From Mesostigma viride (lineage: Eukaryota > Streptophyta > Mesostigmatophyceae > Mesostigmatales > Mesostigmataceae), in contig RPFO01000078.1 in the NCBI GenBank assembly GCA_009746045.1, positions 1,397,107 through 1,461,106 on the forward strand: a stretch of 64,000 nt of DNA, given 5' to 3'. Positions 10,242-48,888 of the stretch are shown piece after piece (position 1 is the stretch's first letter; each line of letters starts with the position of its first letter). A program made the translations under genes and the position numbers. The notes beneath the pieces are model-generated. The model made no database searches and was not told where the DNA came from. It was given only the letters and a program-made list of their open reading frames with translations.

Positions 10242-13200
10242 CAGCAGGAGTCAAGCTGGTGACCGGAGAGAAGAGGAAGTAGGTGCGGCGGAGGCCCAGG
10301 TCGATGCCAGGGAAAACCCCGCTACCCCGTAGCCCAGCCACATCATCCGAAAATGCCCTATCCGGTGTGCCTGCTGAGGTGTCCCAGGGAGGGCTGATCC
10401 TGGCCAGCCAGCCGGCCGCCCGGGTCACTGCCCGGCCATTCCTGCCACTACTGCTACCGTCACCCCCACTGCCACTGCTTTTGCCGCTGGCGCTGGTATT
10501 AATTTTACTGATGCTGCTGTCGGTGCTGGTGCTGCTCGCGAGGGTCATGATTGGCACGCCTGCAGCATACGCCCTCACGAGGCACTGCGTGACCAGATCA
10601 TTCCACTCCTCCCGTGAATAGGCCCCCCGGTCGCTCTTGGGCCCCACGCCATGCTTCCCCCCCGTGGCCCTTGTGCTGGTGGACGCGTGCGCCGGGAAGG
10701 GGGGGCACAGGAAGACCACCTCCCCGTCCCGCAGCAGAGTGGCGCAGTTGGCGGGTGTCAGGGGCAGCCCTCCCATCCCGTGGAAAAAGCGCGCCTGGTC
10801 CCACGCGCTCTCCTCAGGGGACGTCGGCAGCAGCGCTAGGGGATCCGGCAAGGAGAGGCCTGCGGCGGTACGGCGTAAGGCGGAGCGCGCGCCGCCGAAG
10901 AGGACCGATCGGAATCGAAGGGGGCTGTTGTCCGGCACGGGGGCGGCCGCCGAGGAGGAGGAGAGGAGGGACGGATGCAAGAGGCAGCGGGGCAGCAGGC
11001 CGCGCTCTTGGAAGAGGCGTTTCACGACCAGCGCGATGTCTTGAGGGGGCATGGATGCATCGGGCAGGACAAGGAGGGGGCCCCAACGGGGAACCCCGGC
11101 AAGGCCTTGGATGACCCGCGGGCGACGTCGCTTGCTGCTGCTGCTGCTGCTGCTGGTAGTGGTGGCGGTGGTGGTAGTGGTGATGGTGGTGGTGGTGGTG
11201 GTGGTGGCGGTGGCGGTGTTTGTACTTGTGTTTGTGGTCGTGCTGGTACTCTTGGAGTCGGCATAGCCAGCAGAGCTTGTCAGCGTATCGACGTGGCCGC
11301 CTGCGACACCCCTTGATCCGACAACGCCAGATGCAATGCTGGCCACGCCACCATTACTGCCGTTGCCAGCACTTAACCCGTCAGTGCTCTTGGCACCGCT
11401 GGGTTTGCCTAGGCTTGCTCGGTCGCTGTCGATGCCAGTACTGCTATTACTGCTCCTACTGGATCCTGTCACCCCCTTCACCTTCATGGACAGGAACACA
11501 GGGCTGGTGGCCCACTCCTGCCACCGCAAGAACCCGCTGAGCTCCGCCACCTTCTTGGCCGAGGGGCGGGGGAATGCTGATGGTATGGGCGCGACGCCCG
11601 CCCACTTGAGCCGTTCGGGGACGACGTCAGTGGTCCTGGCGCTGCGGGCTCTGCCAGAATTCGCAGCGGTGCCGCTCGGTGGGCCTTGTTTCGCGCCGCT
11701 GGCGCCTGGTGACTTGTGATGGCCATCGCTACCCCCGTGGTCGGGGGCATGTGTGGTGGCTGAGTGACTGGTGCTAGTTTGCGCGGTATTGGTAGCGCTA
11801 ACGGGGGTATTGCTGCTTGCATTGGCACCGTGGCTGCTGGTGGGTAGCCCAGATCCTCCCGGGGGGGTCCGCGCCAGCGTCTCTTCCAATTTCTTCCACG
11901 TCGGCACACCGGCCTCTTGCTGTGTCCCGTTGAGGCTGCCCTCACCGACGTGGGCTGTGGGCCTGGGTTGGTTGGCCCTGGTCGCTGCCATGGGGGCGGC
12001 ATGGGTGGTCAGTGTGGCCTCCAGGAACCCGCTCTGCTCCATGATGCGCAGCACGTCCACGCCGTCCTCCTGGGATGCGCCCAGGCGACAGGAACGGGAG
12101 AAGAGAAACAACAAAGGAGCGATGACAGGGTCGCGATGAGAGGGGGGCGATGGGAGGGGGGCGATGAGAGGGGGGCGATGAGAGGGGGGCGATGAGAGGG
12201 GGTCGATGAGAGGGGGTCGATGAGAGGGGGTCGATGAGAGGGGGGCGATGCGAGGGGAGAGAGGGATGGCAAGGGGTGAGAGGCGGGGGAGAAATACTAG
12301 AAGCGATGAGGAGGAGAGACAAGTGACAAAGATGACGAGAGGAAGAGGACGGAGAAGTGGGGGTGAGGAAAGGAGCAAGCGAGAAGCGTGTTGACAAAAG
12401 GGTAACGTCAAACGTGCACACCCCGTGACCAACGAAGGAAAGCATGCAGGCGTTCCAGTGTCCAGTACGTCGCTAACAAACCTGACTATATTCACTATGT
12501 TTGGTTCGTTCGATGGTTTGGGTGGCTGAGATGCTGCAGGATGGGGTTGCTAATCGGCGTAACGAGCAGTGGCACACAGACAAGTGAAATTACAGACTAC
12601 AGACCAACGCACGGCTATCCTGCCATATTCTAGCATGGATGACCAAGGGGTTCATGTCCCTGCCAACAACTTGACAGGTGCAAGAAGAAACATGCAGCAT
12701 CTCGGTAACATATCCAGCGCATTTGGCACGGGAGACCGGCTGTCGCATGCAGAGCAAAGAGCTCCTCATACCCTGCAAGGCATTGAGGAGACATGAGGGA
12801 CGTGGCCTACTATACACCGGTCTTGCCCAGAAGAGATCCTACTGAGATCCTGTACCATGTAGGTGACTGTACCAGCCACTTTGCCTCCTCACCATGAGCG
12901 CGGCATGACCGCTGGACGGGAGCTTGACCACCTGGCAGTTGGGCATGACCTGGCGCAGGCGTTCGCCCTCCTCCACGGATGGCAGCAAGAGGTCTTGCGT
13001 GCTGTCAAAATGCAGCAGGTGGGAGCATTATGGATCGCCAGGGCAGCTAGCCCGACCCACCAGATCAACCAGAGCAACAAGTCCGGGGGTAGGGCGAGCC
13101 TGTGAAGTTCACAGGCTCGCCCTACTAGTGTGAAGACAGAGCCCGGGAGGCAGACACGGGTACTACCACAAGAAGATGTTTCGAGGGGGCAACTAACCCG

Positions 13201-16200
13201 TTTGCCCTTTTTCTGGCAACTGACCATCCATCCAGCCAAGGGGAATCAAGGGATATGTCACGGCGATTATCAAGCAGGCCTACACGGGGCGAAGTAATGG
13301 GAGGCTTTTCCTTCCTCCCCTCGTGCGGCACATATACAGTTCCGCAGTACCTACTTGCCCATCAGCATATGCGGGGTCCTGCTGTGGCCTGCCCATTGTA
13401 GTACAAGAGAAGCAAGGGCACCCTCCCTCCCTCCTCGTGTCCAGGGGCTTATTGGCACCTTTATTGGCACCCATGCGACGCAGTCACGTGCTTTTGATGA
13501 ACTTATCAGCAAAAAAAACTTATTGACTGGGGCTAGTCAATCACACGCATCTGCCTGCCACACCGCCATCACCACACACATAGCACCGACCTGGCCAGCA
13601 CCAGCGTCTTCACGCGCACGGTGGGCAGCAGCGGGTTCACTCTCCGCACCGCATCCGTCAGCAACAGCATGCGCCAGTCCCAGGTCTCGGGCGGAAGCAG
13701 GTCGGGCAGTGCCTGGAGCCGTGTGGCGTGACAGTCGCAAGTATTCAAATGGAACCGCAGGGATCCCACGCACAGGAGCACGGCGTTGCAAGTGCCCAGG
13801 ACAAGATCAGAGCAAGGCACAACAATTACGATAGGTACCTTACTAGAAACACCTGAGAGAAGCTAGTAAACATCAAAATAGTCATAACAACAAGCTTGTA
13901 GACTCTATAAGGTTAAGAAATTATAATTTTATTCTTATAGATTGTCCTGCGGGTGTTGATGTAGGTTTTGTAAACGCTGTAAAATAACAACAGGACTTGA
14001 AGAAAGAATTCACATTCACGCGCTTAAGTGGGGCTGTTTTCAGGATCCATTTGGGATAGTAAGAAGCGTCGAGATCTTATGAAGCGGAAAATAGCCCACC
14101 CAAATACCACCCAGTGACATATCAATGAGACAACCCTAATCATATGGTCACTACGCGCTCAAGCTGATGAAATGCAACCACAGATACTTGATGATAATCA
14201 AGAGGCTATGATTAGAGAGCTGGAGGGCGACAAGATGTCAGAGGCCGCTGGTGTCAAGCATGTGACAGTGTCCAGCACCGCTCCCCTCTGCCCTCTCCCC
14301 TCTCCGCTCCCCCCTCTCTCCTCTCCCCTCTCCCCTCTCCCCTCTCCCCTCTCCCCTCTCCCTCTCCCCTCTCCCCTCTCCCTCTCCCCTCTCCTCTCCC
14401 TCTCCCTCTCCCCTCTCCCCTCTCCCCTCTCCCCTCTCCCCTCTCCCCTCTCCCCTCTCCCCTCTCCCCTCTCCCCTCTCCTCTCTCCTCTCTCCCCTCT
14501 CCCCTTTCCCCTCTCTCCACTCGCCTCTCCCCTCGCATTCTGCATCCAGACAATGGCAGCCCCCCTGACCTGGACCAGGCCACCATATTCGAGCAGTTGA
14601 AGAGGGGGAAATTTAAACAACCTTCAATAGGCTAGGAGCTGGAAGGTGACCAAGATGGTCAAGGGTGACAAGCAACAGTAGACCACGGTTTCAAGCACGT
14701 GACAATGACCAGCCAATAGGCCTCCCACCGCTCACCTCTCATCCCTCACCTATGCGATGCCAGCGCCCCTCACCTGCACCAGGCCACCGAACTTAAGCAG
14801 CTCGTTGATCACCCCCGACGCAAAGTCCCGCAGCGAGTCGCGCGCGGTGTCCTCCACCTGGCCCGCCGCCACGTCGAGCGCCCGCCCTGCGGATGCAAGG
14901 TTTGTGAATAACGGATGGGCACAAGTGGGCCGCCGATGAGGAAACTTGGCATTAGGCAGCAATAAAATGAAATGATAAGGATGAGCAAGGTGATGGCTAT
15001 TCAGCGGCTGATAGAAACTTGGCATTAGGGAGCAATAAAATGAAATGATAAGGATGAGCAAGGTGATGGCTATTCAGCGGCTGCCCGGCGTGCCATTGCA
15101 TCAGCAGCTACTGAGATGGATTATATGCCAGCGCTCCGCAATGCAAGCACATTAACAACACCATCAAGCATGTACGCCTACCCAATAAGTCGATGACACA
15201 CAGATGAAATACGGTGGCCTGGCTGATCCACAGGACGCGTGTTGGACTGCTGGATAGCGAACGCAGTTTAGGTGAACACGGACCCCACACGATCCGAATG
15301 AAACAAGCCCGAACGTGCGCAAACATGCCACGCATGCATACTGGGAAGAGGCACGAACACAACCCCTACCGACATGGGGAGTAGCACCAGCTAGGTCGCC
15401 TACCAACAAAGGGCAGCCAAGATCAAACCAAACCACCTACGCACAAAGGGCAGCCAAGATCAAACCAAATCACCTACCCACAAAGGGCAGCCAAGATCAA
15501 ACCAAATCACCTACCCACAGAGGGCAGCCAAGATCAAACCAAATCACCTACCCACAAAGGGCAGCCAAGATCAAACCAAATCACCTACCCACAGAGGGCA
15601 GCCAAGACCAAACCAAATCACCTACCCACAGAGGGCAGCCAAGATCAAACCAAATCACCTACACCCAGAGGGCAGCCAAGATCAAACCAAATCACCTACA
15701 CACCAAGGGGAGCCAAGATCAAACCAAATCACCTACCCACAAAGGGCAGCCAAGATCAAACCAAATCACCTACCCACAGAGGGCAGCCAAGATCAAACCA
15801 AATCACCTACACACAGAGGGCAGCCAAGACCAAACCAAATCACCTACCCACACAGGGCAGCCAAGATCAAACCAAATCACCTACACACCAAGGGGAGCCA
15901 AGACCAAACCAAATCACCTACCCACAAAGGGCAGCCAAGATCAAACCAAATCACCTACCCACAGAGGGCAGCCAAGACCAAACCAAATCACCTACCCACA
16001 GAGGGCAGCCAAGATCAAACCAAATCACCTACACCCAGAGGGCAGCCAAGACCAAACCAAATCACCTACCCACAGAGGGCAGCCAAGATCAAACCAAATC
16101 ACCTACCCACAGAGGGCAGCCAAGATCAAACCAAATCACCTACACACCAAGGGGAGCCAAGATCAAACCAAATCACCTACCCACAGAGGGCAGCCAAGAT

Positions 16201-19200
16201 CAAACCAATTCACCTACCCACAGAGGGCAGCCAAGACCAAACCAAATCACATACCCACAGAGGGCAGCCAAGATCAAACCAAATCACCTACACACCAAGG
16301 GGAGCCAAGATCAAACCAAATCACCTACCCACAAAGGGCAGCCAAGATCAAACCAAATCACCTACCCACAGAGGGCAGCCAAGACCAAACCAAATCACCT
16401 ACCCACAGAGGGCAGCCAAGATCAAACCAAATCACCTACACCCAGAGGGCAGCCAAGACCAAACCAAATCACCTACCCACAGAGGGCAGCCAAGATCAAA
16501 CCAAATCACCTACCCACAGAGGGCAGCCAAGATCAAACCAAATCACCTACACACCAAGGGGAGCCAAGATCAAACCAAATCACCTACCCACAGAGGGCAG
16601 CCAAGATCAAACCAATTCACCTACCCACAGAGGGCAGCCAAGACCAAACCAAATCACATACCCACAGAGGGCAGCCAAGATCAAACCAAATCACCTACAC
16701 CCAGAGGGCAGCCAAGACCAAACCAAATCACCTACCCACAGAGGGCAGCCAAGATCAAACCAAATCACCTACCCACAGAGGGCAGCCAAGATCAAACCAA
16801 ATCACCTACACACCAAGGGGAGCCAAGATCAAACCAAATCACCTACCCACAGAGGGCAGCCAAGATCAAACCAATTCACCTACCCACAGAGGGCAGCCAA
16901 GACCAAACCAAATCACATACCCACAGAGGGCAGCCAAGATCAAACCAAATCACCTACACACCAAGGGGAGCCAAGATCAAACCAAACCACCTACCCACAC
17001 AGGGCAGCCAAGACCAAACCAAATCACCTACCCACAGAGGGCAGCCAAGATCAAACCAAATCACCTACACCCAGAGGGCAGCCAAGACCAAACCAAATCA
17101 CCTACCCACAGAGGGCAGCCAAGATCAAACCAAATCACCTACCCACAGAGGGCAGCCAAGATCAAACCAAATCACCTACACACCAAGGGGAGCCAAGATC
17201 AAACCAAATCACCTACCCACAGAGGGCAGCCAAGATCAAACCAATTCACCTACCCACAGAGGGCAGCCAAGACCAAACCAAATCACATACCCACAGAGGG
17301 CAGCCAAGATCAAACCAAATCACCTACACACCAAGGGGAGCCAAGATCAAACCAAATCACCTACCCACAAAGGGCAGCCAAGATCAAACCAAATCACCTA
17401 CCCACAGAGGGCAGCCAAGATCAAACCAAATCACCTACACACAGAGGGCAGCCAAGACCAAACCAAATCACCTACCCACACAGGGCAGCCAAGATCAAAC
17501 CAAATCACCTACACACCAAGGGGAGCCAAGACCAAACCAAATCACCTACCCACAAAGGGCAGCCAAGATCAAACCAAATCACCTACCCACAGAGGGCAGC
17601 CAAGATCAAACCAAATCACCTACCCACAGAGGGCAGCCAAGATCAAACCAAACCACCTACCCACAGAGGGCAGCCAAGATCAAACCAAATCACCTACCCA
17701 CAGAGGGCAGCCAAGATCAAACCAAATCACCTACCCACAGAGGGCAGCCAAGACCAAACCAAATCACCTACCCACACAGGGCAGCCAAGATCAAACCAAA
17801 CCACCTACCCACAGAGGGCAGCCAAGATCAAACCAAATCACCTACCCACAGAGGGCAGCCAAGATCAAACCAAACCACCTACCCACAAAGGGCAGCCAAG
17901 ACCAAGCCAAATCACCTACCCACAGAGGGCAGCCAAGACCAAACCAAATCACCTACCCACAAAGGGCAGCCAAGACCAAACCAAATCACCTACCCACAAA
18001 GGGCAGCCAAGACCAAACCAAATCACCTACCCACAAAGGGCAGCAGCACGGTGGGTGCGGCCGCGTACACAGGCTTGCGCACTGCGTCGTCGAGGTTCAT
18101 CAGCAGAGGGAGCACGGTGGGCAGAGGCGTGCGGTCCACCGACGTGGCTGTGGGATGGAGGGGAGGACAAGGGCAACGGGGGGCAGGTGAGGGCATTAGG
18201 GGGGAGGTGAGGGCAGTAGATGGCAGGTGAGGGCAGTAGGGGGCAGGTGAGGGCAGTAGGGGGAAGGTGAGGGCAGTAGGGGGAAGGTGAGGGCAGTACG
18301 GGGCAGGTGAGGGCAGTAGGGGGGCCAGGCAGTGGAGCCTGATAAGGGCAGTATGGGGCCGGCAGAGAGGATCAGGGGCAGGTAGGTGGGCTGTACAATG
18401 CGTGGGCACAAGTGGAGTGGCCAGGCAGCTGAGTGGCCAAGCGCTCGGGTGGTAGAATGGGTGGGCGGGCATGCTGTGGCGCAATGGTGGAATGCCGTAT
18501 AGGGTTAGGTTGCAGTGAGGGGCGTGAGAGGGGGGGAGGAGAGAGAGGGCTAATGGGCAGGGAGAGGGATTTTACAGGGTTTCGTGAGACTTCCCTGAAG
18601 CTGAAGGCTTCCTTCAAAGATTGCTGCACTTACATAGAACCTTGGACTGACACGTCTAGAAGCAGCAAAGGCAACAGGTGCAAAGACTCTCGCATGCTAC
18701 CCGGTGCGATTTGTCTCCTGCGAAACCTCCCTCCCCCAGCAGGCGTTCCCGATGTTTACTTGATCCCCTCATTCGTCACATTCCCAACATTCCCTTGCAA
18801 TCCGCTCCCAGGGCTGACGAGCCCCCGCACCACACCCACCAGGGTTGACGAGCACAAGGCCAGCCAACAGGCCCTGCACGGCGGGCTCCAGGGCTACCGC
18901 CAGAGTGAGCACGGCGCCAAAGGATTCGCAGATGATGAGGATGGGGCGTGACGGATGCCTCTCTTTCTCGCGCACCAGCTCCGACACTACCACGTCCATC
19001 AGGCCTGTGCGGATGTGGTGGCGCGAGGAGTGGGCGATAGATCAATAAAATTGGATCATATGGAGCTCCGGCACTGCCTCGGCCATCAGGATGAGGGCAT
19101 AGAGCAGGCAACATAATCCATATAAACAAATTAATCACTTTGACTTAATCAACTAACGAATCAATTAAGGGGGAGACTCCCCGTGGAGTCATCAGTTCCA

Positions 19201-22200
19201 CAGTCTCTAAAGGGGACCGGCTTCCCTAAAAAAGATTTCCGGATGATAGTGCGCCAAAATCAGGAAATTATATGTCGGAACTCGGATGGCTTTGTCCCCT
19301 GCGGTGGTACTAAGGAGCGTGTGTGCTTGACGTGCCACACACGTACTAATGGATGTAGGAAGTGGCCAAACGCAGGAGTGAAGGGCCGGCCACAGGATGT
19401 GATGCCCGGCCCCGTTCTCGTTTGACTCCCAAAACTTTTTGTCTCATATCCAACTGGCAGCATATCCACTGGCAGCATATCCAACTGGCAGCCACAGTTT
19501 CGTTTGTCAGTTGCGTGCGTGTACCAAAGCCACGAGTTTATTCGTCAGTTACGGATATGCGTGGTTCCCAAGTTGATGAGCATGCATGCATCGACTATCA
19601 CTGCCTGCCTCCGGCTCATTCCCAGTGCCTATAGGTGGGAGAAGAACGGAGACGCTTCCAAGGGAAGCTGGAGAGCCGGAGAGACTGCGTTCCTGTTGCG
19701 TCTACAGGGAAGAGAGTCAGAGCATGGGTGTGCTGCGAGAGAAGGAGAGCTGGGTGTGGCAAACAGCAAGGGCATAATAGACCACGAGAAGACTGGCTCA
19801 CCTTGGAACGTTGTTCGGTTGGCCAGCGGTACGGTGAGGGGCATAATAGACCACGCGAGGACTGGCTCACCTTGGAACGTTGTTCGGTTGGCCAGCGGTA
19901 CGGTGAGGGGCATAATAGACCACGAGAGGACTGGCTCACCTTGGAACGTTGTTCGGTTGGCCAGCGGTACGGTGAGGGGCATAATAGACCACGAGAGGAC
20001 TGGCTCACCTTGGAACGTTGTTCGGTTGGCCAGCGGTACGGTGAGGGGCATAATAGACCACGCGAGGACTGGCTCACCTTGGAACGTTGTTCGGTTGGCC
20101 AGCGGTACGGTGAGGGGCATAATAGACCACGCGAGGACTGGCTCACCTTGGAACGTTGTTCGGTTGGCCAGCGGTACGGTGAGGGGCATAATAGACCACG
20201 AGAGGACTGGCTCACCTTGGAACGTTGTTCGGTTGGCCAGCGGTACGGTGAGGGGCATAATAGACCACGCGAGGACTGGCTCACCTTGGAACGTTGTTCG
20301 GTTGGCCAGCGGTACGGTGAGGGGCATAATAGACCACGCGAGGACTGGCTCACCTTGGAACGTTGTTCGGTTGGCCAGCGGTACGGTGAGGGGCATAATA
20401 GACCACGCGAGGACTGGCTCACCTTGGAACGTTGTTCGGTTGGCCAGCGGTACGGTGAGGGGCATAATAGACCACGAGAGGACTGGCTCACCTTGGAACG
20501 TTGTTCGGTTGGCCAGCGGTACGGTGAGGGGCATAATAGACCACGCGAGGACTGGCTCACCTTGGAACGTTGTTCGGTTGGCCAGCGGTACGGTGAGGGG
20601 CATAATAGACCACGCGAGGACTGGCTCACCTTGGAACGTTGTTCGGTTGGCCAGCGGTACGGTGAGGGGCATAATAGACCACGCGAGGACTGGCTCACCT
20701 TGGAACGTTGTTCGGTTGGCCAGCGGTACGGTGAGGGGCATAATAGACCACGCGAGGACTGGCTCACCTTGGAACGTTGTTCGGTTGGCCAGCGGTACGG
20801 TGAGGGGCATAATAGACCACGAGAGGACTGGCTCACCTTGGAACGTTGTTCGGTTGGCCAGTGGTACGGTGAGGGGCATAATAGACCACGAGAGGACTGG
20901 CTCACCTTGGAACGTTGTTCGGTTGGCCAGCGGTACGGTGAGGGGCATAATAGACCACGCGAGGACTGGCTCACCTTGGAACGTTGTTCGGTTGGCCAGC
21001 GGTACGGTGAGGGGCATAATAGACCACGAGAGGACTGGCTCATCTTGGAACGTTGTTCGGTTGGCCAGCGGTACGGTGAGGGGCATAATAGACCACGAGA
21101 GGACTGGCTCACCTTGGAACGTTGTTCGGTTGGCCAGCGGTACGGTGAGGGGCATAATAGACCACGCGAGGACTGGCTCACCTTGGAACGTTGTTCGGTT
21201 GGCCAGCGGTACGGTGAGGGGCATAATAGACCACGAGAGGACTGGCTCACCTTGGAACGTTGTTCGGTTGGCCAGCGGTACGGTGAGGGGCATAATAGAC
21301 CACGCGAGGACTGGCTCACCTTGGAACGTTGTTCGGTTGGCCAGCGGTACGGTGAGGGGCATAATAGACCACGAGAGGACTGGCTCACCTTGGAACGTTG
21401 TTCGGTTGGCCAGCGGTACGGTGAGGGGCATAATAGACCACGAGAGGACTGGCTCACCTTGGAACGTTGTTCGGTTGGCCAGCGGTACGGTGAGGGGCAT
21501 AATAGACCACGCGAGGACTGGCTCACCTTGGAACGTTGTTCGGTTGGCCAGCGGTACGGTGAGGGGCATAATAGACCACGAGAGGACTGGCTCACCTTGG
21601 AACGTTGTTCGGTTGGCCAGCGGTACGGTGAGGGGCATAATAGACCACGAGAGGACTGGCTCACCTTGGAACGTTGTTCGGTTGGCCAGCGGTACGGTGA
21701 GGGGCATAATAGACCACGAGAGGACTGGCTCACCTTGGAACGTTGTTCGGTTGGCCAGCGGTACGGTGAGGGGCATAATAGACCACGAGAGGACTGGCTC
21801 ACCTTGGAACGTTGTTCGGTTGGCCAGCGGTACGGTGAGGGGCATAATAGACCACGCGAGGACTGGCTCACCTTGGAACGTTGTTCGGTTGGCCAGCGGT
21901 ACGGTGAGGGGCATAATAGACCACGCGAGGACTGGCTCACCTTGGAACGTTGTTCGGTTGGCCAGCGGTACGGTGAGGGGCATAATAGACCACGAGAGGA
22001 CTGGCTCACCTTGGAACGTTGTTCGGTTGGCCAGCGGTACGGTGAGGGGCATAATAGACCACGAGAGGACTGGCTCACCTTGGAACGTTGTTCGGTTGGC
22101 CAGCGGTACGGTGAGGGGCATAATAGACCACGAGAGGACTGGCTCACCTTGGAACGTTGTTCGGTTGGCCAGCGGTACGGTGAGGGGCATAATAGACCAC

Positions 22201-23708
22201 GAGAGGACTGGCTCACCTTGGAACGTTGTTCGGTTGGCCAGCGGTACGGTGAGGGGCATAATAGACCACGCGAGGACTGGCTCACCTTGGAACGTTGTTC
22301 GGTTGGCCAGCGGTACGGTGAGGGGCATAATAGACCACGAGAGGACTGGCTCACCTTGGAACGTTGTTCGGTTGGCCAGCGGTACGGTGAGGGGCATAAT
22401 AGACCACGCGAGGACTGGCTCACCTTGGAACGTTGTTCGGTTGGCCAGCGGTACGGTGAGGGGCATAATAGACCACGAGAGGACTGGCTCACCTTGGAAC
22501 GTTGTTCGGTTGGCCAGCGGTACGGTGAGGGGCATAATAGACCACGAGAGGACTGGCTCACCTTGGAACGTTGTTCGGTTGGCCAGCGGTACGGTGAGGG
22601 GCATAATAGACCACGAGAGGACTGGCTCACCTTGGAACGTTGTTCGGTTGGCCAGCGGTACGGTGAGGGGCATAATAGACCACGAGAGGACTGGCTCACC
22701 TTGGAACGTTGTTCGGTTGGCCAGCGGTACGGTGAGGGGCATAATAGACCACGAGAGGACTGGCTCACCTTGGAACGTTGTTCGGTTGGCCAGCGGTACG
22801 GTGAGGCACCGCAACTCAAACACGCTGAGCGCAGGCACAGCGCACAAAGCAACGGGCGACAGAAGACCACGGTAAAGTGAATAAAGCTCAGCCACACTCA
22901 CGAAGGCATTTAAGCGCACCCAGGATACTGCAGCTATAAGCTTCAGCTGGGGATGCCGTACGCCCTCAACCAGTTGCATGACACTATCTAGGCGAAATCT
23001 TCCCCTTTGTGCTATTTCGGGTATCTGCTGGGTGTGCCTGGCACCTGTGTCGTGATAGAAGACACAACCAGCCATTCATGGCCGATCAATCCGTGGAAGG
23101 CCAACACGTGGAAGGCCAAGGGACATCATAAAGTGCTCTAAGTTTCTACCAGGTGCACAGCGTGGGATGGTGACTGGCAGGCAACCTTCTCTTCTTGCCG
23201 GAGCGGTCCCATGGCAGATGAGATGTGGTTGGAACGCCCGAGGCACAAGCAAAGTATCACTCACTTATCGTGTGAACGTCGAAAGGTAGGGCTCAACCAC
23301 AGGTGCTTACGTCTTTAGCGGCGCAAACTGGGGAATGGCCCCGAGTCCCGTCAAGTCGATGCCCGGGAGATAGATGAGGAGGGGCGGGTCAGGGGGAGGT
23401 GGGCCCACCGCGGGGCACCAGAAGCGTGGGGCTACAGAACCACCGGTGTCATGCTGCCATCGCAGGTAATCTTCCATGCAGACTTCGCCCGCGTATCCTT
23501 TCGGCGCAATCTTTGACACAGGGGGGAGTCCCGAAAGGCCCGCAACCGTCACACCCCGCAGCTGGCGGGGGCTCCTAAGTACCCTACCATGGCGCTGCTT
23601 CGAAATTCTTGCACAAACCTTTCGGCTCCCTCCGGATATACTGAATAGCTGAGAATTACCGCGGAGAGAAAGGGGCGAAGCGAGCATGTCGACACTTTGG
23701 CATGCCAT
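10242..23708 (-). CDS. Phytyl ester synthase / DGAT-like esterase-acyltransferase, 8 exons, 3' end open
   Basis: Exons (minus strand): 23311-23708, 22769-22824, 18840-19004, 18031-18147, 14774-14886, 13591-13712, 12893-13001, 10242-12069. All introns are GT-AG and all joints keep phase, giving about 969 residues before an unresolved C-terminus. Plant members of this family esterify phytol or make triacylglycerol in plastoglobules. The N-terminus is Ser/Arg-rich, like a plastid transit peptide. Residues ~85-360 form an alpha/beta-hydrolase: LIYLPGIDLTGLG, CESFG with Ser179, VNPATS, Asp327 in STQDLLLPS, His356 in SSGHAALM. Residues ~361 onward form the acyltransferase half (EDGVDVLRIM, SPVFLS, IQGLAGVP, GLPLTPANCATLL), with long Ser/Thr/Gly insertions. 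The acyltransferase motifs look degenerate: the HX5D histidine is Ala and the PGG-R-E motif reads PPFPAHA. The start is the first ATG of exon 1. Introns 2-5 carry copies of their own 5' splice sites. Confidence 0.85.
11130..11225 (-). repeat. GGT/GCT microsatellite inside exon 8
   Basis: A run of GGT- and GCT-type triplets encodes, on the minus strand, a Thr-rich then Ser-rich tract inside the acyltransferase half of the esterase gene. It sits in a long low-complexity insertion between SPVFLS and IQGLAGVP, where relatives have only a short linker. Triplet periodicity keeps the frame. Confidence 0.75.
12130..12260. repeat. 15-bp minisatellite in intron 7
   Basis: About eight units of GGGGGCGATGAGAGG, with a GGGGTCGATGAGAGG variant, lie 60 bp upstream (in gene sense) of the exon 8 acceptor. 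The unit contains no splice site of the gene. Open frames over it are by-products of the repeat. Confidence 0.85.
13087..13123. repeat. Near-perfect palindrome in intron 6
   Basis: Two 18-bp arms (GTAGGGCGAGCCTGTGAA and its reverse complement) are separated by a single G. The structure could extrude as a cruciform, or fold as a hairpin in the pre-mRNA. It is neither a terminator nor a known element. Confidence 0.8.
14165..14830. repeat. Segmental duplication covering the end and 5' splice site of exon 5
   Basis: The stretch 14630-14830 (exon 5 end, donor and early intron 5) has a decayed second copy at about 14165-14615. On the minus strand the exon end GGTGGCCTGGTGCAG/GTGAGG is matched at 14560-14585 by GGTGGCCTGGTCCAG/GTCAGG. 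The following AGCTGGA..GTGAC..TCAAGCA.GTGACA blocks match too. A CCTCTC microsatellite (14285-14525) has expanded inside the second copy. Confidence 0.78.
14938..15085. repeat. 73-bp tandem duplication in intron 4
   Basis: Two copies of a 73-bp unit beginning GAAACTTGGCATTAGG lie directly next to each other, differing at about one base. They are about 50 bp upstream (in gene sense) of the exon 5 acceptor and contain no exon sequence. Confidence 0.9.
15398..18043. repeat. 37-bp minisatellite (~71 units) seeded by the exon 4 donor
   Basis: The period is 37 bp throughout. On the minus strand each unit reads CTGCCCTTTGTGG/GTAGGTG plus about 17 further bases: the first 13 bases equal the last 13 of exon 4, then comes the 5' splice site, then intron sequence. 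The first unit is the real exon 4-intron 4 junction (exon end at 18031). Variants (CTCTGTGG, CCTTGGTGT and others) nearly all keep GTAGGTG. Units form higher-order blocks: one marker variant (ACCAATTCACC) sits at 16204, 16611, 16870 and 17240, spaced 11, 7 and 10 units exactly. A 971-codon plus-strand frame across the array is a product of the repeat, not a gene. Confidence 0.93.
18180..18335. repeat. 20-bp GC-rich minisatellite in intron 3
   Basis: About seven imperfect units of GTAGGGGGCAGGTGAGGGCA lie just upstream (in gene sense) of the exon 4 acceptor. On the minus strand they are C-rich with CTCACC blocks and may extend the polypyrimidine tract of this acceptor. Confidence 0.8.
18801..18855 (-). 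repeat. Small duplication of exon 3 end
   Basis: On the minus strand the exon 3 end GTGCTCGTCAACCCTG/GTGGGT is followed about 35 bp later by GGGGCTCGTCAGCCCTG/GGAGCG. This is a decayed copy of the last ~14 exon bases in which the donor GT has been lost. Confidence 0.6.
19772..22807. repeat. 69-bp minisatellite, 44 units, seeded by exon 2 and its donor
   Basis: There are exactly 44 x 69 bp with no indel. Apart from one alternating site (GCG in 18 units, GAG in 26, plus strand) only a few single substitutions occur. On the minus strand each unit is 38 bp of the 56-bp exon 2 (encoding LTVPLANRTTFQ), the donor CAAG/GTGAGC, and 31 bp of intron. The outermost unit (22739-22807) is the genuine exon 2 end. 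The unit is divisible by three and free of stops in at least four frames, including the exon 2 frame, which explains the >1000-codon frames on both strands. None of these should be called a gene on its own. Confidence 0.95.
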
Positions 23709-26192: not shown

Positions 26193-29100
26193 ATGGGTCG
26201 GCGGAAGCCAGCAGTCCGGCACAAGGACTCGGCGTCAGAAACCCGGCATGCCCATGACGACAACGACGACGCGTTCACAGGGAGCCCGCGTTGTTTGCCA
26301 CCGCATGCCAACGAAGGCGTCAGCATCCTCCTGTCCGTCTTCCTCTCCTCCCTGCTTGCATTGCTCATCTTCCTCCCGTCCATCGGCAACAGCGTGATCT
26401 ACGACGACATGTACGTGGTCAACAACCCGGACATCCAGCCGTCCCGCATGAGCTGGCGCTCGCTAATGACGCACGACTGGTGGGGCACCGTCCTCGACGA
26501 CCGGCAGAGCAACCAGCAGTGGCGGCCGCTGTCCGTCATCTCCCTCGGGCTCGACTTCTGGTTCTGGGGCTGCACAGAGCCCATCCCTGGCCGTACCGCG
26601 TTCGCCGGGGATGCGCGGGGCCCGGTAGAGAACCACGAGTGCCTGCGTGGTTTCCACGCGACAAATATAGCGCTGCACGCTGCGTGCACCGCGCTCGTGT
26701 TCCTGTGCGCGCGGCTCGTGCTGCGGCTCCCGCTTATCCCCTCCTTTCTGGCCGCGTGCCTGTTTGCCGTCCACCCGGTGCACAACGAGAGCGTCTCCAC
26801 CGCCTACGGCCGAGCCGACATGCTGTCGTTGTTCTTCCAAGGGTTTGCTATGCTCTACCACGCGGCACGGTTCGGACACACCAAGGTCAAGCCCTCGCAC
26901 TCGCCCACCTCGACGTCGCTGCTCACGACACTGCTCAGCCCGCCACATGGCAGCGGCCGGCCGGGCCACACACACCCCGTGCTGCGGCGCAGCGTGAGCA
27001 TGCTGCGGCGGCATTCACTGCTGGCGCACGTCAAGTCGTTCGTGTACGAGCTGGTCCACCCAGAGGTGCTGCTCTGCCTCGCCTCCTTCCTCACCAAGGA
27101 GTCTGGTGCGTGTCTGCTTTTGGTGGCTTTCGTGGTGTCTGAAATGGTGTCTGAAATAGCGGTGCCATTGGCAGTTTCAAATGGTGGTTGGAATGGTGGT
27201 TGGAATGGTGGTTGGCATGGTGGTTGGAATGGTGGTTGGAATGGTGGTTGGAATGGTGGTTGGAATGGTGGTTGGAATGGTGGTTGGAATGGTGGTTGGA
27301 ATGGTGGTTGGAATGGTGGTTGGAATGGTGGTTGGAACGGTAGTTGTAATGGTGGTTGCAATGGTGGTTGCAAAGGTGGTTGGAATCGTGGTTGGAATGG
27401 TGATCAGCAAAGTGGCCTAACTGGTGGTGGTAACAGTGGACCGCTCATGCTGGCAGACGGGCGGGCAAGTTTGAGTGGAATCAAGTAGGGCTACGAAAGG
27501 ATACTGTTGTCGCATTATTCAGGCCAGAGCCTGAAGCCTCGGCGCCCCCGCCTGCCAGGGCATCCCTGTCTCTGCGACGCAGCAAAGGGAAGCTCTCGTA
27601 TGTGCACAGGCTCTTCAAGTATGCACCATGGGAGGCCTGTCACAAACATCTTGTTGCCTCTAATTTCCCTTCTGTCACAAACATCTTGTTGCCTCTAATT
27701 TCCCTTCTTGACCTCGACTTCCAACCTTGGCCCCCCCGCCCCTTCCCCTCCCCCACCCCTTCCGCCACACCACCCCTGTCCCTGCGCAGGCATGATGACA
27801 TTTTTCACCATATTCGCCTGGGACCTCCTAATCCTGGACCCCGCCGTGGTGCTGGGCGCCGCGCCCGCCTCGGCCGACAAGTCCCACCCCCGCGCCATCG
27901 TGCCGGCCGGCAGCAACAGCAACCTTGGGCAAGTGGCGGGATCCGGTCCCCCCGTGCAGGGGAACTCCCCGGGGGCGCCCACCAGCTCCAGCAGCAAGTT
28001 GACTCGCGTGCTCGCGGGCGTATCCAGTGGCCCCGCGTACACATGGGTGGGCATGTTGGCCAAGCCCGCCGTCGGCGTGGGCATCGTCGTCGCCCGTAAG
28101 ATCCTGTTGAAGAAGTGGCTCCCCCCCACGGGCTTCATGGACAACAACATCAGCTTCTACCCGCCCTGGCCGCGCACGCTGTCCAACCTACACATCCACT
28201 ATCGCTACCTGGGCCTCCTCATCCTGCCCCTCTACCAGGCCATCAACTACTGCTACGACTCCATCCCCATCGTCACCTCCATCTGGGACCCCCGCAACCT
28301 GCTGTGGGTGTCTGCGTACACGGCGGTCCTCTCCCTCCTCTGGGTGTTCTGGCGCGCGCGCAACCACGTGGGCACATTCCTCATCCTGTGGGGCGCGCTC
28401 GTCTTCCTCCCCGCGTCCAACATACTGTTCCCGGTGGGGACCGTCATCGGCGAGCGGCTCCTGTACCTCCCGTCCGCGCCCTTCTGCATCCTCGTCGCTG
28501 TGTGCATCTACTGCGGCATCAACGCGGCGCCCTGGAGGGGTCCCTGCCCTGGTGCCGGCGGGGGCGAAGGCGACCCCGCTGACGCCCACCCCCCACGGTC
28601 CCCCCGCTCCGCCGACGCACGCACGTACCGCGTCAATGGGGCGGGTGCCGGCTGTGATGTCACGAATGCAGAGGGTTCCAGCGGTTCAGGGTATTCCGGG
28701 CACGCTAGAACGGGAGGGCCGGGCGTGGCCCTGGTGGCGCACGAAGGGGTCGGGGCCATGTGCGGGGATCCCTCCCTTTCGGTCGGCGGGTCGCCCTCCG
28801 CTTCGTCCTCGTCCGCACTGGTAGCCGTGTTGGTTGCCATCATGTCCCTCCCTGCGGCCATCTGGACGATCGTGCTGACGTGTGACGACCGCAGGTGCGG
28901 GCGGCGCCATCCGGCCGCCGACGGGCGCGGCTGGCGCGTGGCGCTTCTCCTGGTCATCATCGGTATTGCGGGCGCCACGCTGAACGCGCGCGTGCCGGAC
29001 TACCAGGACAACTATCACGTGTACACCGCCACGCGCAACAACTACCCGCGCAACGCGTTCGCCCACTACAACCTCGCGGTCGAGATGGACAAGCGGCGCG

Positions 29101-32016
29101 AGTACGTGGAGTCGCTGGTCCCGTACAACCACGCGGTCTCCCTGTTGAACGAGGTGAGGCGCGCGGTTTATGGTGGGGTTGTCTGGTTGAGGGTTGCCTC
29201 GTCGGGTTTTCGGGTCGGGTTGTCTGGTATGTGTGTGCCATGTGGCATCAGTAGTGTGTGTCGTAGCGAGTCAATGCCATGGTAAATTCTCATCAAAATC
29301 TTCTTTTGAAATTGTTGAGGTGGCAATTGTTGATATCGCTCCACTTGGAGCCACCCATCCCCTACACCCACACGGTGTCGCTGGTCACTGCTGTGAGGTG
29401 AGCCACGCGGCTTCACCCATCACGTTGTGTGTGTGCCTCGACTCCCCCCTTGTCCATCTGCTCCCCTGCATGCCCTGTGTTGCCCGCATCTATTGCGTCT
29501 TTGCCCGCCGCAAGCAACGAAAACATGAGCACTGCGGTCAAGTGAAAGCAACCATACAGTGAGCATCGCTGTCAAGTGAAAGCAACCATACAGTGAGCAT
29601 TTCGGTCAAGTGAAAGCAACCATAGAGTGAGCATTGCTGTCAAGTGAAAGCAACCATACAGTGAGCATTGCGGTCAAGTGAAAGCAACCATAGAGTGAGC
29701 ATTGCTGTCAAGTGAAAGCAACCATACAGTGAGCATTGCGGTCAAGTGAAAGCAACCATACAGTGAGCACTGCGGTTAAGTGAAAGCAACCAAAACGTGA
29801 GCACTGCGGTCAAGTGAAAGCAACCATACAGTGAGCATTGCTGTCAAGTGAAAGCAACTACACAGTGAGCATTGCTGTCAAGTGAAAGCAACTACACAGT
29901 GAGCGTTGCTGTCAAGTGAAAGCAACCATACAGTGAGCATTGCGGTTAAGTGAAAGCAACCATACAGTGAGCATTGCGGTAAAGTGAAAGCAACCATACA
30001 GTGAGCATTGCGGTCAAGTGAAAGCAACCATACAGTGAGCATTGCGGTCAAGTGAAACTCCCTGCCTTTCACGCGTCTCGTCACGCGTCTTCCTCACTTT
30101 GCTAATACTCTGCTTGGTTTATTCCTTTGCTCTGGTTTATTTCGTTACTCCAGGAGGGTGGAAACAGGAGGCTTCCACCCTCCTGTTTCATGCCCCTCGT
30201 TTCCACTCATGTCGCTACTCCCTTATCGTTCCCTTTTCCCGTTGTTCGAGTGCCGTGTGCCAGATCCTGGAGAAAGATCATATTTTTTACTCATCACTTT
30301 GTGTGCACCTCTGTCCCCCCTCTTTGTGATTCCCCCTCTGCGCTTTTCCCCCTCGTTGCTACTCCCATTGTGCGTGCTTCTTCACTCATGTTGCAACTCC
30401 CTCGCCAATCCCCCTTCTCCTCCCCGTCGCGGTCGCCAGATCCTTGTAGGTTCGCTCATCACGTCGCATTTTACTCCTCGTCCTCCCTTCCTCACCCTCG
30501 CTCTCCCATCCTTATGCACGAGCGCGTTGCCACTCATCATCACGTCGCACTTTACTCCCCTTTCCCCTCGTCCCCCACCCCCTTGTTGGGGCCGCCAGAT
30601 CCTGGAGCGCGAGCACGGGCTGGGCCTGGACACGTCCCACACACGGGAGCAGCTCTTATCCAAGGTGATCGACCGGCGCGACTTCCTGCAGCAGAACAGC
30701 CAGACGCTCTACGAGGTTAACGGTGAGTGGGTTTAACAGTATCTGCTGCTAGTAGCGCTTTGGACTGCTTGCACGCCGTGGCATGCCGCTGCGTATGACA
30801 TGCAAGTACTTGCTTGCACGCCGACAGCCAGGCGCTCCCTGAGGTCAACGGTGTGTGGATGCGATGTCTTTTAGGGGTACGGGCCTGGTACGGGGGTTAT
30901 GAGAGAATTTGATATGAGGTCAATGATATCAGGTCAGTGAGGTCAACGGTTATTGGATGGATGTTGGTGGCCGTTGGCTGTGTGTTGGTGGACTTGTTCT
31001 GCATGCCAACCGTGACAGGTGTGGTGCGGGGTCAAACGTGCGTGTGTGTTGACTGTATGTGTTCTTTTCCTTACTCGGCCATACCCTCACAGAGCAATCT
31101 CACAGGCTCTTCTCCCATCGCCGTTGGGGGTCGGTGTGCCCACCGACACAGTACCGTACCCATCACTTCCTCAAACTAATGGCCTCATGCATTCATGCCT
31201 TTACTAATGGATGGCTTCATCCTCACCAATGGGTGGCCTCCCCAACCACTCTTGGGCAGCGCATTGCACGTGTGAATACATTCACACACGCCATGAGCCT
31301 CACCATCCCTGATGGATACCCTCCCCCTCTCCCTTGGCTTTTTCCTCACCCCCCCCAGTGGATGCTCCTCTAGGGTATCCTCGCCGATTAACGCCCTCCC
31401 CATTCTCCTGTTCTCACTCTGCCAATCGGATGGAGACATGCGCAACCCCTTGGATGGTTCCTCACATTTGCCTGCCCTCACCAGTTCGCGTGGAAACGCA
31501 TTTACCCTCAAACGGATGCAAAGGGGTGCGTTCACCCTCACCCATTCACCTAGCCCCACGCTCACAATCGCATGGCTTAACCCTTCCCAATGGGTGGTCT
31601 CGCGCCTTCGCTCGCCCTCACCAGCCATCCACGACCAGATTCTGGAGCTCAACGAGGCAGGCGTGCTGCAGGAGCGCGAGGGCAAGAGCGAGGCCTCCCT
31701 GGCCGCCTTCAACCGCGCCCTGCAAGTCTCGCAGCCGCTCTGGCAGGAGATGCCGCGCCTGTCCGGCCACGTGCAGGAGAGCGTGCGCGTCGTCTTCCAG
31801 AATACCTGCTATGTGCTCGCCAAGATGGGCATGTACTCGGAGGCCCACATGGTCGTGGACCTGGCCCTCAACATCTTCCCGGCCAACTCCAACGACCACG
31901 CCACGTTCGCCATCAACAAGCGCACGCTCGCCCAGCTGGAGGCGCAGGGGAAGGAGGTGGGGGCGGGCGATGCTAGCAAGGCGCACACGGCAACGTTCGG
32001 GCTCAAGACCTCGTGA
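26193..32016 (+). CDS. TMTC-type transmembrane TPR protein O-mannosyltransferase, 4 exons
   Basis: Exons: 26193-27105, 27790-29153, 30599-30722, 31625-32016. All introns are GT-AG, phases agree, and the joined frame is 930 residues. TMTC proteins are polytopic ER enzymes (GT-C fold) that transfer mannose to cadherin-like and other client proteins; the substrate in an alga is unknown. Residues 42-62 form the first membrane segment. YDDMYVVNN (70-78) carries the acidic pair of the first lumenal loop. QWRPLS (109-114), HPVHNES (194-200), GRAD (206-209) and LTKES/G (300-305) are family motifs. Exon 2 holds the DUF1736-like part (YDSIPIVTSIWDPRN, FLPASNILFPVG, GERLLYLPS) and further membrane segments with a Pro/Gly-rich insertion. 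From about residue 720 on there are TPR-like helices (NAFAHYNLAVEMDKRREYVE; NTCYVLAKMGMYSEA). The first ATG of the exon 1 frame was taken; an upstream GTG is less likely. Confidence 0.88.
27180..27400. repeat. 12-bp minisatellite in TMTC intron 1
   Basis: About 18 units of TGGTTGGAATGG, with variants at the right end, begin 75 bp after the exon 1 donor. The frame stays open (Asn-Gly-Gly-Trp) on the plus strand and also on the minus strand. The unit carries no splice site, so it is taken as intronic; a read-through isoform cannot be excluded because the frame is continuous with exon 1 up to 27488. Confidence 0.85.
27639..27706. repeat. 33-bp tandem duplication near the exon 2 acceptor
   Basis: TGTCACAAACATCTTGTTGC plus the following CTCTAATTTCCCTTC occurs twice in a row. 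It lies about 85 bp upstream of the TMTC exon 2 acceptor, ahead of its C-rich tract. Confidence 0.88.
29525..30055. repeat. 34-bp minisatellite in TMTC intron 2
   Basis: About 16 units of a 34-bp repeat with the core AAGTGAAAGCAACCATACAG followed by TGAGCATTGCGGTC. Units vary at a few positions (CGG/CTG, ACA/AGA) and one has lost a base. It does not resemble the exon 2 donor junction, unlike the arrays in the esterase gene. Confidence 0.9.
30823..30858 (+). repeat. Decayed copy of the exon 3 end and donor in TMTC intron 3
   Basis: The true exon 3 end, ACAGCCAGACGCTCTACGAG plus GTTAACG/GTGAGTGG (30696-30730), is matched about 130 bp downstream by GACAGCCAGGCGCTCCCTGA plus GGTCAACG/GTGTGTGG. 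Most positions match, including the GT. A further weaker echo, GAGGTCAACGGTTATTGG, follows at about 30938. Confidence 0.75.
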
Positions 32017-37610: not shown

Positions 37611-39070
37611 CTAGTTTTAACGTGCGCACCCTCCCTGCAGATCCTTCTACGAGCGGCGGCACCCCAGCACGCCAACGCGTCGACGAGCTGATCGCCCTGT
37701 GCGCCGACAACAAGATCGCTGTTCTTGGAGTCCAGGAGCACCGACGCACCGTTGACCCTCAGCACGCGGTCAACGGTCTGCTGGTCGACGACCTGCGTGC
37801 AGGCTGGCGGTTCCACTATGGTGGCGGCGACGCGCCGGGCCAAGGTGGTGTGGGCCTCTTGTGCTCGCCGGCAGCATCAGAGCAGCTCCAGTCCATCGTG
37901 CTGCGGTCCCCGCGTGTGCTAGTGGCCACTTTTTCGGCCACTGAGGGCCATTCACACCACACGCTAACCGTTATCGTGGGATATGCACCACATGCGGGTC
38001 GAGCTCAGGCGGAACGTGAGGCCTTCTTCGACGCCCTCAAGGAGGAGGAGGCCAACATCCCAGCTCGGCACTTCCTGGTTATGCTGCTCGACGCCAACGC
38101 CACGCTGCCAGTTGGCACTGGGGGCGCTCAGTATTCCCCAACCAACACGACAGCCAACGGTAACACGCCTTTATTTGCGAATCTGCTGGCAGAATCTGCG
38201 CTGGTTGCATGCAATGCTTCTTTCGCACGCCCCGCTGAGCAGCTGGCCACCTTTTTTGGGCCGTCGGATCGGGTGGTGTGCCTTGATTATGTCTGCGTAC
38301 GTCGGGCTCAGCGCCCCTCAGTTGTCGATGCTCGCGTCCTGCAAGATTCTGTCAGCACGGTGGAATCTGATCATCGTCTCGTGCTCGCTCGCATCAGATT
38401 GCGGTTTCCTGGGGTGAAACCGTCGCGACAGCTGGCACCTCAGCCAGATCTGAAAGTGCTCCGGATTGTGCTGAAGGATGCCGACAAGATGTCAGCAGAA
38501 GAGCAGGCCGCTATGTCGCACAGGGATGATTTCCTGGCCGTATTCGACGCCGGGGGCAGCCGACAGCAGTTACACGCCATTCCGCCGCCGGGGGATATTT
38601 CAGTGATCCTCCGTGGTGTCGCCGCCAAGTATCGCCTGGCTGCCCGCACCCTCCCCACCTTGCCTCCGCGTCGGCAGCTTGCTGTCCACCGTCACGCACC
38701 GACAGTGGTCGCCGCCAGGCAGATGCTCCGCCGCAACAGAGATCCGCTCGCCAAACCTGGGCTGCAAGCAGCTCTGAGGGCCGCCTACGAGCAGGCTGAG
38801 AAGGCAGATGCTCAGCAGATGGTCAAGGACCTGCGCAGCTGCCAGCAGAAGCACGACGGCAAGGGGGCCTGGTTCTGGTACAAGCGCCTCGGGCACCCGG
38901 ACGGCCTCGGCCGGCCCCACCGCCACGACGTCCCCGGCGCCCCAGCCAAGCGGCTTCGTACCTGGGCCACGGCCACGGCCGAGGTCGTGGGGACAGCTGC
39001 GCCGCCCCCACCCCTGCTCCCAGCCGCCGCCGCCCGCCGGCCGCCCTGGCCGGCCCCGCAGGGCCCCCGG
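37611..39070 (+). CDS. LINE A ORF2, APE-type endonuclease part
   Basis: The frame enters with ILGIASFNVRTL (about 37600). It carries the apurinic-endonuclease motifs in order: LGVQEHR (catalytic Glu) near 37725, GWRFHYGGGD near 37803, VGYAPHAG near 37978, LLDANATLP near 38083, DRVVCLDYVCVRR near 38270 and ESDHRLVLARI near 38365 (the SDH end motif). The enzyme nicks target DNA to prime reverse transcription. A helical linker and a Pro/Ala-rich stretch follow. The frame then differs by one base from the reverse transcriptase frame, so ORF2 is split at about 38900-39080. No ATG near the start is certain; ORF2 may begin upstream at 37285 in another frame. Confidence 0.85.
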
Positions 39071-40782
39071 CCCCGCCTAGGTCAGCGGCGGACTACCTAG
39101 TCCCCCCGCTGGTCGGCCCACTTGGCGACCCGTCTGACATGCCTCCTTTCACCTCTCGCGAGGTCACGGAGGCGGTCCAGCGCCTGCGTTATGACGCAGC
39201 CACCGGCTCTGACGAGATTCCGGCCGCAGTTGTAAAACTTGCAGCCGAATTCGAGGACACAGGTGTTATGCTGCTCTTCCGGGACATCTGCAACCGCCTT
39301 CTGCTGTCGTCGCAACCACCTCCAGCGGCCTGGCAACACAGTTTTCGCACGATGCTGTACAAGAACAAGGGGTCGCCTGCCGACCCCGGCAACTACAGAG
39401 GGGTGTGCATTCAAAGTGCCCCCCTCAAGCTTCTTATGCGGCTCATCCTGAACCGCCTGCGCACGGCCCTGGACGGTCACCTCAGCGAGACTCAGCACGG
39501 CTTCCGTTCAGGTCGCAACACAGTACAGGCGCTCTTCGCTACTCGCCGACTGGTGGAGGAACTGCAACGCCTTCAGCCTGGTGAGTCCCCTTTGCACCTT
39601 GTGCTGGTGGACTTCATCAAAGCCTTCGATTCGGTTTTCTGGCCTGCGCTTTGGGACATCCTCGAGTTGTTCCGGATCCCCCGCCCCCTGATTGCTGTCA
39701 TCCGCAACCTGTATGAAGGGTCCACCACTTCGGTGCGCACTTCTTACGGGACCACGCCCCCATGCCCTTTACAGAAGGGTGTGTGGCAGGGCTGCGTGCT
39801 GTCGCCCTACCTGTTCATTATTGTTGTCGAATACGTAATGATTCAGGCGCGCAAGCGATTTGCCCGCATCGTGGGCAGGGAACCAGGAGTGCAGGTTGCT
39901 AACAAATTCTGGCATGGCGGTGCGGACACGGAGATTCGGCTAGCAGACATCATTTACGCAGACGACACCACCCTCTTTGAGGACACTGAGCACGTGCAGA
40001 CATGGCTTGACTGCCTGGCTCTCGAGGCCCGTGCAGTGGGGCTTGAGGTCAGCAAGAAGACAGAGGCCCTGGCGGTTGGGCTCACCACCTCAGCGCCGCC
40101 CCTCTATCTCCTAGACGGCTCTCGAGTCCTGTATCGGGACCGCGTTAAGCTGCTGGGCAGCCTGCTCCCTAGCTGCGAGGTGGATGTGGACCACCGCATC
40201 TCCCTCGCCTGGCACGCTTTACGCCAGTACCGGGCCCTATGGCGCAAGCCCCTGGGCAAGATCGAGAAACAGGACCTGTTCAAGGTCCTCGTCCTTCCTG
40301 TTCTCACGTATGGCGCCGAGACGTGGACCCTCACCGCCGACCTGGCCCGCAAGCTGGACGGCGCGGTCACCAGCATGCTGCGTTCCATTTTCAGAGTAGG
40401 ATATGCTGCTCATGTCCGCAATGAGGACCTGTACCAGGGCATGCCCTATATCACCAGCACAATTAAGCAACGCCGCCTGCAGCTAGTAGGGCACCTAGCT
40501 CGCACCAACCAGGTAGACACCTCACGTGGCCCCCCCGCAGGACTGCGACCAGCCCAGCCTGGCCGGCACCTCCTGACGTGGGCTGGGCCCAGTGATGTTA
40601 GACGCCGCAAGGCCCGCACCTTCAAAGAACAGCTAGTAGAGGACATGGGGGGCCTCGGCCTCTCCGTGATTTGGAAGAAGATGATGGACAAGGCCAAGTG
40701 GGCCCAGGTCATAGAGGACAACGAGCCCCCCCCAGTGGGGAAGCGCCCGCGTGTGCAATCCCACGGGAGGCACGCTAGATAG
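39071..40782 (+). CDS. LINE A ORF2, reverse transcriptase part
   Basis: Open from the linker to a stop at 40782. Motifs in order: GSDEIPAAVVKL, FRTMLYKNKGSPADPGNYRG, LSETQHGFRSGRNTVQALF, LVLVDFIKAFDSVFW (first Asp), GVWQGCVLSPYLF (the usual R is W), IYADDTTLFED (catalytic Asp pair near 39955-39965), EVSKKTEAL, then the thumb-like VLTYGAETWTL and RRLQLVGHLAR. It copies the element RNA into the nicked target. The conserved YADD box is intact. The only visible defect is the frame difference from the endonuclease part. Confidence 0.9.
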
Positions 40783-41330: not shown

Positions 41331-41937
41331 CTAATTCATTCATTCATTCATTCATTCATTCATTCATTCATTCATTCATTCATTCATTCATTCATTCATT
41401 CATTCATTCATTCATTCATTCATTCATTCATTCATTCATTCATTCATTCATTCATTCATTCATTCATTCATTCATTCATTCATTCATTCATTCATTCATT
41501 CATTCATTCATTCATTCATTCATTCATTCATTCATTCATTCATTCATTCATTCATTCATTCATTCATTCATTCATTCATTCATTCATTCATTCATTCATT
41601 CATTCATTCATTCATTCATTCATTCATTCATTCATTCATTCATTCATTCATTCATTCATTCATTCATTCATTCATTCATTCATTCATTCATTCATTCATT
41701 CATTCATTCATTCATTCATTCATTCATTCATTCATTCATTCATTCATTCATTCATTCATTCATTCATTCATTCATTCATTCATTCATTCATTCATTCATT
41801 CATTCATTCATTCATTCATTCATTCATTCATTCATTCATTCATTCATTCATTCATTCATTCATTCATTCATTCATTCATTCATTCATTCATTCATTCATT
41901 CATTCATTCATTCATTCATTCATTCATTCACTCACTC
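41331..41937. repeat. (CATT)n microsatellite, ~150 units
   Basis: This is an uninterrupted CATT tetranucleotide array of about 600 bp. Its 264-codon plus-strand frame (Ser-Phe-Ile-His repeats) is an artefact. Only the last units change (CTCACTCGCC). Confidence 0.98.

Positions 41938-48759: not shown

Positions 48760-48888
<129 letters not shown>

Follow-up and report, generated by a model that had tools for sequence, protein, structure and literature searches.

A 69-bp minisatellite of 44 units, found on the minus strand of a 64,000-nucleotide stretch of the Mesostigma viride genome (the whole stretch is hereafter the window), is probably the amplified product of a tandem duplication that took in the donor of exon 2 in an alpha/beta-hydrolase gene, and would represent a class of event common in this genome and tolerated because the outermost donor would be the one used. 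A second array of the same anatomy lies in the same gene, and copies of an exon's own end together with its donor occur in 22 of 57 introns sampled from this one genome, where donors are copied more often than acceptors and the copies are local and direct. The 69-bp array is the most homogeneous case seen, and appears to be the most conspicuous product of a common process rather than a unique object.

Two donor-anchored arrays in one hydrolase gene

The hydrolase gene was modelled on the minus strand in seven exons, namely exon 1 (23311-23708, 398 nt from the ATG), exon 2 (22769-22824, 56 nt, the last 38 nt of which are the exon part of the first 69-bp unit), exon 3 (18840-19004, containing the hydrolase ESFG motif), exon 4 (18031-18147, whose last 14 nt open the second array), exon 5 (14774-14886), exon 6 (13591-13712) and exon 7 (12893-13001). 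The spliced model is in frame, with phases 2, 1, 1, 1, 0, 2 and 0, and gives a piece of 360 residues in which Pfam recognizes Abhydrolase_6 (8.9e-9), an alpha/beta hydrolase. The hydrolase motif is one that we take to be reminiscent of plastid phytyl-ester-synthase-like hydrolases. Exons 2 and 3 are placed both by the model and by a homologue, P0001 (267 aa, 32% identity, E 7e-20), a distantly related predicted protein encoded on a contig of 2136 bp. The alignment with P0001 is gap-free where exon 2 joins exon 1 and where it joins exon 3 (FELRCLSIRTDDYSTWQNLARDTV against FELRCLTVPLANRTTFQGLMDVVV), which argues for the predicted exon 2 and for both of its edges, and residues from the array would not be expected in the protein. 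An earlier note, made from the letters of the window, had placed exon 2 with its donor and phases, and had taken the first donor of the array to be the real one; the seven-exon model agrees with the former over exons 1, 2 and 3, and the lack of extra residues in P0001 favors the latter. When a second haplotype of the gene was sought across the assembly with exon 1, one match only was obtained. Intron 4 also contains a 73-bp duplication in two copies (14941-15083), and intron 5 a 7-bp CTCCCCT array (14281-14534), both reported by TRF.

The 69-bp array extends over 19770-22805. In the 64-kb window, TRF gives a period of 69, 44.0 copies, 99% matches and 0% indels at 19770-22806, and a parse of the minus strand from 22805 to 19770 yields 44 full units without an indel, as the earlier note had described. 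Its reading of the unit as an exon-intron junction is also borne out by the parse: the repeat begins within exon 2, of which it takes in the last 38 nt, and continues across the donor into intron 2, so that each unit consists of 37-38 nt of the exon-2 end, the donor CAAG/GTGAGC and 31-32 nt of intron. With head-to-tail units of this length, within the 10-100 bp range, the array is a minisatellite. The sequence of unit 1 recurs exactly in 23 of the 44 units, and the other 21 differ by a single base, which is T>G at unit position 52 in 18 of them and falls once each at positions 38, 12 and 49. Such near-homogeneity fits the recent amplification that had been proposed. The donors had been called identical, which holds for the 43 units that read AAG/GTGAGC and fails for unit 26 (21080-21012), which reads AAG/ATGAGC, its GT having become AT. 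The segment at the end of exon 2 matches its own intron with a score of 63, while the best of 200 shuffles reached 13.5, and hence the match is not due to chance. A search of the whole window against Rfam at gathering cut-offs gave 0 matches.

The second array, a 37-bp minisatellite of 71.5 copies by TRF, lies at 15399-18044 on the minus strand and begins at the end of exon 4. Its unit comprises 14 nt of exon 4, the hexamer GTAGGT and 17 nt of intron, and GT is retained in all 71 full units (67 GTAGGT and 4 GTATGT). In both arrays the unit is a direct copy of the adjoining sequence including the splice site, as in a tandem duplication. Reading through beyond the first donor of the 37-bp array leads to an immediate stop, and since the period is in addition not a multiple of three, the further donors would break the protein. 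The two arrays amount to a natural experiment on the choice of donors in a single gene: the 42 intact spare donors of the 69-bp array would all keep the frame, and the 71 further copies of the 37-bp array (70 full and one partial) would all add a stop.

Exon-end copies across 57 introns

Within the window, the own exon end and donor are copied in five of the nine introns of the hydrolase gene and its TMTC-type neighbor, as the two arrays and as three decayed copies. In the hydrolase gene, a decayed copy of the exon-5 end and donor is found at 14553-14596 (minus strand; offset 204, 80% identity). The TMTC-type gene (26193-32016, plus strand) has four exons in frame that encode 930 aa. Its exon at 27790-29153 carries the Pfam match TMTC_DUF1736 (5e-8), and the end of this exon, with the donor, has a decayed copy at 29358-29413 (offset 244); the next exon (30599-30722) has one at 30815-30858 (offset 128), and exon 4 starts at 31625. 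The three copies score 26, 21 and 24, against respective maxima of 15.5, 15 and 16.5 in 200 shuffles. The TMTC introns also hold a 12-bp array (27180-27402) and a 34-bp array (29526-30057), neither of which starts at a donor as judged by eye. Elsewhere in the window there are open frames resembling a LINE-type element with endonuclease and reverse transcriptase (37622-40782) and a Ty3/gypsy-type element (44361-58546), both judged by eye from translations, as well as an ATTC microsatellite of 150 copies with 99% matches (41334-41934, TRF).

Further introns were placed by homology, using exon pairs from Pfam profile searches of the assembly, in which dynein AAA1 gave 44 exon matches and the kinesin motor 129; from these came 32 stretches, 12 for dynein and 20 for kinesin. 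The pairs had adjacent HMM positions and a moderate span; longer introns and most pairs within the same open frame were left out, and intron edges were resolved by frame and splice-site score. The resulting sample of 57 introns comprises 9 from the window, 18 from dynein and 30 from kinesin genes. Left out beforehand were three poorly resolved dynein introns, L033, L036 and L040 (1563 nt), all free of donor and acceptor copies, three unresolved dynein pairs, and a weak kinesin case, L059_2232, in which the donor was copied but not the acceptor. Among all 61 resolved introns, donor copies number 23 and acceptor copies 6. Kinesin exon matches are spaced alike on contigs C2 and C622, and the assembly thus probably keeps some haplotigs. 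Two copies of a chaperonin gene (L061 and L062, on the probable haplotigs C1641 and C887) measure 4082 and 907 nt from one shared exon match to the next; the extra ~3.1 kb, which lies in one intron, was considered as a donor array and rejected, because the same TRF unit occurs twice, 2395 bp apart, which makes the extra sequence look like an LTR-type insertion.

The 60-nt donor window from -40 to +20 is significantly copied within its own intron in 22 of the 57 cases (window 5/9, dynein 6/18, kinesin 11/30). The same donor windows gave 0/57 against the reversed intron, 0/57 against the reverse-complemented intron and 0/57 against one other intron, and the copies are therefore local and direct. 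They contain the end of an exon of the gene in which they lie, and are often serial: at least two copies are present in 11 of the 22 introns and at least three in 6 (9 and 4 of 20 without the two arrays), and gapped views of L050, L044 and L035 show successive units, in each of which an exon end is followed by the donor and the first part of the intron. Median intron length is 894 nt with a copy and 552 nt without, arrays included.

Along the 57 donors, the number of introns with a copied window rises from the exon towards the splice site, being 0 for -160 to -100, 0 for -130 to -70, 1 for -100 to -40, 3 for -80 to -20 and 13 for -60 to 0; it is then 20 for -50 to +10, 22 for -40 to +20, 21 for -30 to +30, 16 for -20 to +40, 14 for 0 to +60 and 13 for +20 to +80. 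The corresponding acceptor counts are 13 (-80 to -20), 10 (-60 to 0), 6 (-40 to +20), 6 (-20 to +40), 4 (0 to +60), 1 (+20 to +80) and 0 (+40 to +100). Donors thus exceed acceptors (-20 to +40) by 22/57 to 6/57 (Fisher p 0.0009), by 17/48 to 5/48 when the window introns are excluded (p 0.007), and by 11/30 to 4/30 in the kinesin set alone (p 0.07). With the two arrays left out, 103 of 482 interior intron windows have a downstream copy, which indicates that local duplication is general in introns; against this background acceptors are copied more rarely (5/55, p 0.03), donors more often (20/55, p 0.017), and exons at a rate near zero. Part of the donor excess over the interior may come from slower decay or conservation of the exon side.

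Two broader counts gave no asymmetry or excess. A home-made gene finder, run on 261 kb, placed copies at 11 donors and 9 acceptors among the 244 introns that it predicted outside the window, and at 9 of each among 224 at score 20; although known exons were found again, the program linked everything into four 'genes', so that many of the predicted introns are probably false and these counts unreliable. A motif test that used no gene models, on 58 local-repeat groups, gave 27 for the donor against a permuted mean of 26.35, and 31 each for the reversed and the complemented motif, with the flaw that several rows were aligned to themselves (distance 0). The repeats listed by a blastn self-comparison were all separated by 100 bp or more. 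Ungapped extension recovered complete head-to-tail periods in no more than 3 of the 22 copy-bearing introns, and some older cases could hence be short templated copies and not tandem duplications.

Spare donors and a proposed lengthening of introns

The spare donors might themselves be functional, as alternative donors, as sinks for U1, or in recursive splicing through AG/GT units that join an acceptor to a donor, although we regard this as improbable. GT is still to be read in most copies: apart from the two arrays there are 34, of which 32 extend as far as the donor base, and GT is present in 28 of these 32, in addition to the 71/71 and 43/44 of the arrays, and AAG/GTGAGC lies within the 69-bp unit; these are counts of GT alone, however, and CAAG is a poor acceptor next to the CAG ends of 19/21 and 31/31 resolved introns, for which the scoring favored CAG. 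Copy offsets are divisible by three in 5 of 22 cases (p 0.37 against one third), as is expected if the copies are untranslated and the spare donors are not productively used.

The same offsets bear on a reading that appears more doubtful still, in which exon 2 runs on through the array and encodes a protein of 44 repeats of 23 residues (LTVPLANRTTFQGEPVLSWSIMP). A 69-bp unit corresponds to 23 codons, the frame, entered where exon 2 starts, remains open over 1064 aa through the array, and any intact donor of the array would preserve the frame into exon 3. Openness is nevertheless weak evidence, since open frames cross the array in four of the six frames, and the frame in question ends at a stop 46 codons after the last unit. 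Moreover, nothing is inserted in P0001 between the parts that match exons 2 and 3, the sister array of 37-bp units is not open, and the offsets lack the preference for multiples of three that translated copies would show.

A dispersed element with splice sites of its own, be it an introner or another kind, is a very unlikely source of the copies. Introners and introner-like elements do bring splice sites with them, as reported from Micromonas and other eukaryotes (PMC3879977 and PMC9860276). They are near-identical copies in many unrelated genes, whereas the present copies carry the end of an exon of the gene they lie in and match their own intron in 22/57 cases and one other intron in 0/57. 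A two-unit query against the 439.9-Mb assembly placed 20 of 20 of the matches listed within the 69-bp array (lower bounds), and among them was no array of the same unit outside any gene, from which, as the earlier note had allowed, this one might have been copied. Finally, there is scarcely any likelihood that the array is an artefact of a looped or mis-assembled read, for although near-homogeneous arrays are hard to assemble, T and G alternate irregularly at unit position 52 (22 switches along the array against 21.3 when shuffled), single variants sit in units 26, 29 and 44, and divergent serial donor-bearing copies are present in other genes.

Under the preferred explanation, the amplified duplication of a donor, the array would have started with the tandem duplication of a segment that reaches from exon 2 across its 5' splice site. 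Once two units were present, unequal exchange or slippage could amplify them, and the homogeneous 69-bp array would be the latest case. With the outermost donor taken as the one in use, the 43 further units would be part of intron 2, and the coding sequence would be unchanged while the intron became longer. Duplications crossing a donor would be tolerated because the upstream donor still adjoins the exon and stays in use. A duplication crossing an acceptor, on the other hand, would leave part of the intron, with a second acceptor, in the message unless splicing passed over the first acceptor, and one inside an exon would alter the protein, so that both kinds would mostly be removed. Such a scheme predicts that donors are copied about as often as the interior, acceptors less often and exons hardly at all, and the observed pattern agrees with it. 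Introns would thus lengthen from the 5' end, through stacks of their own exon end and spare donors, which would decay or occasionally amplify into minisatellites.

Long introns are usually attributed to transposons and small insertions. The copies described here directly record another route of lengthening, whose raw material, the exon's own end, is still readable in over a third of the sampled introns, and the asymmetry between donors and acceptors makes it testable. We lean slightly towards the view that tandem duplication across the 5' splice site is a main route of intron growth in the Mesostigma viride genome, acting as a near-neutral and hard-to-undo ratchet on the donor side that largely spares acceptors. 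If so, introns would come to carry stacks of up to dozens of intact spare donors, which would feed minisatellites.

Comparison with known systems

The earlier note had regarded the array as a singular object beyond known processes, a view that is not supported, given the second donor-anchored array in the gene, the frequency of copied exon ends and donors among the sampled introns, and the fact that tandem duplication of splice sites has already been described as an event, in passages of PMC4974935, PMC3443670 and PMC3629103. The model that explains intron gain by tandem genomic duplication (Rogers 1989; Hellsten 2011; recounted in PMC4974935 and PMC3443670) is similar in that a tandem duplication provides extra splice sites, and AGGT is present in the unit. 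In that model a new intron arises inside an exon, whereas the present duplications seem to add length, at the donor end, to introns that already exist; they do so in many introns and with up to 44 and 71 units. In the potato RdRp gene, the duplicated segment likewise crosses an exon-intron boundary; according to the relevant part of PMC4974935, however, it is the intron 1/exon 2 boundary, on the acceptor side, which was duplicated once and made a new intron, while the present duplications cross the donor side and are not put forward as the source of a new intron. The fission-yeast introns built of short tandem repeats with proto-splice sites resemble the present ones in their short units with splice-like sites, and differ, in the portion of PMC3629103 concerned, in being new introns derived from exonic repeats, in two cases and with few units. 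A limited literature search returned no title on donor-anchored arrays or on donor-spanning growth of existing introns, and an earlier publication is possible.

Internal gene duplications spanning splice sites (Gao and Lynch 2009) are named in passages of PMC4974935 and PMC3629103. They share with the present copies the inclusion of splice sites, and the present copies differ in being short, serial and donor-biased. The duplications of Gao and Lynch reportedly concern the creation of introns, and human introns are said to have been traced to tandem arrays by Zhuo and others in 2007. Minisatellites and VNTRs are a general class of tandem repeats, to which the arrays conform in their tandem units of 37-69 bp and, for the 69-bp case, in near-homogeneity; unlike minisatellites in general, their first unit begins in a coding exon, and nearly every unit contains a GT donor. 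The arrays therefore belong to a known kind, the tandem duplication that spans a splice site, which here acts on existing donors, is frequent in the sample and asymmetric, and can form minisatellites.
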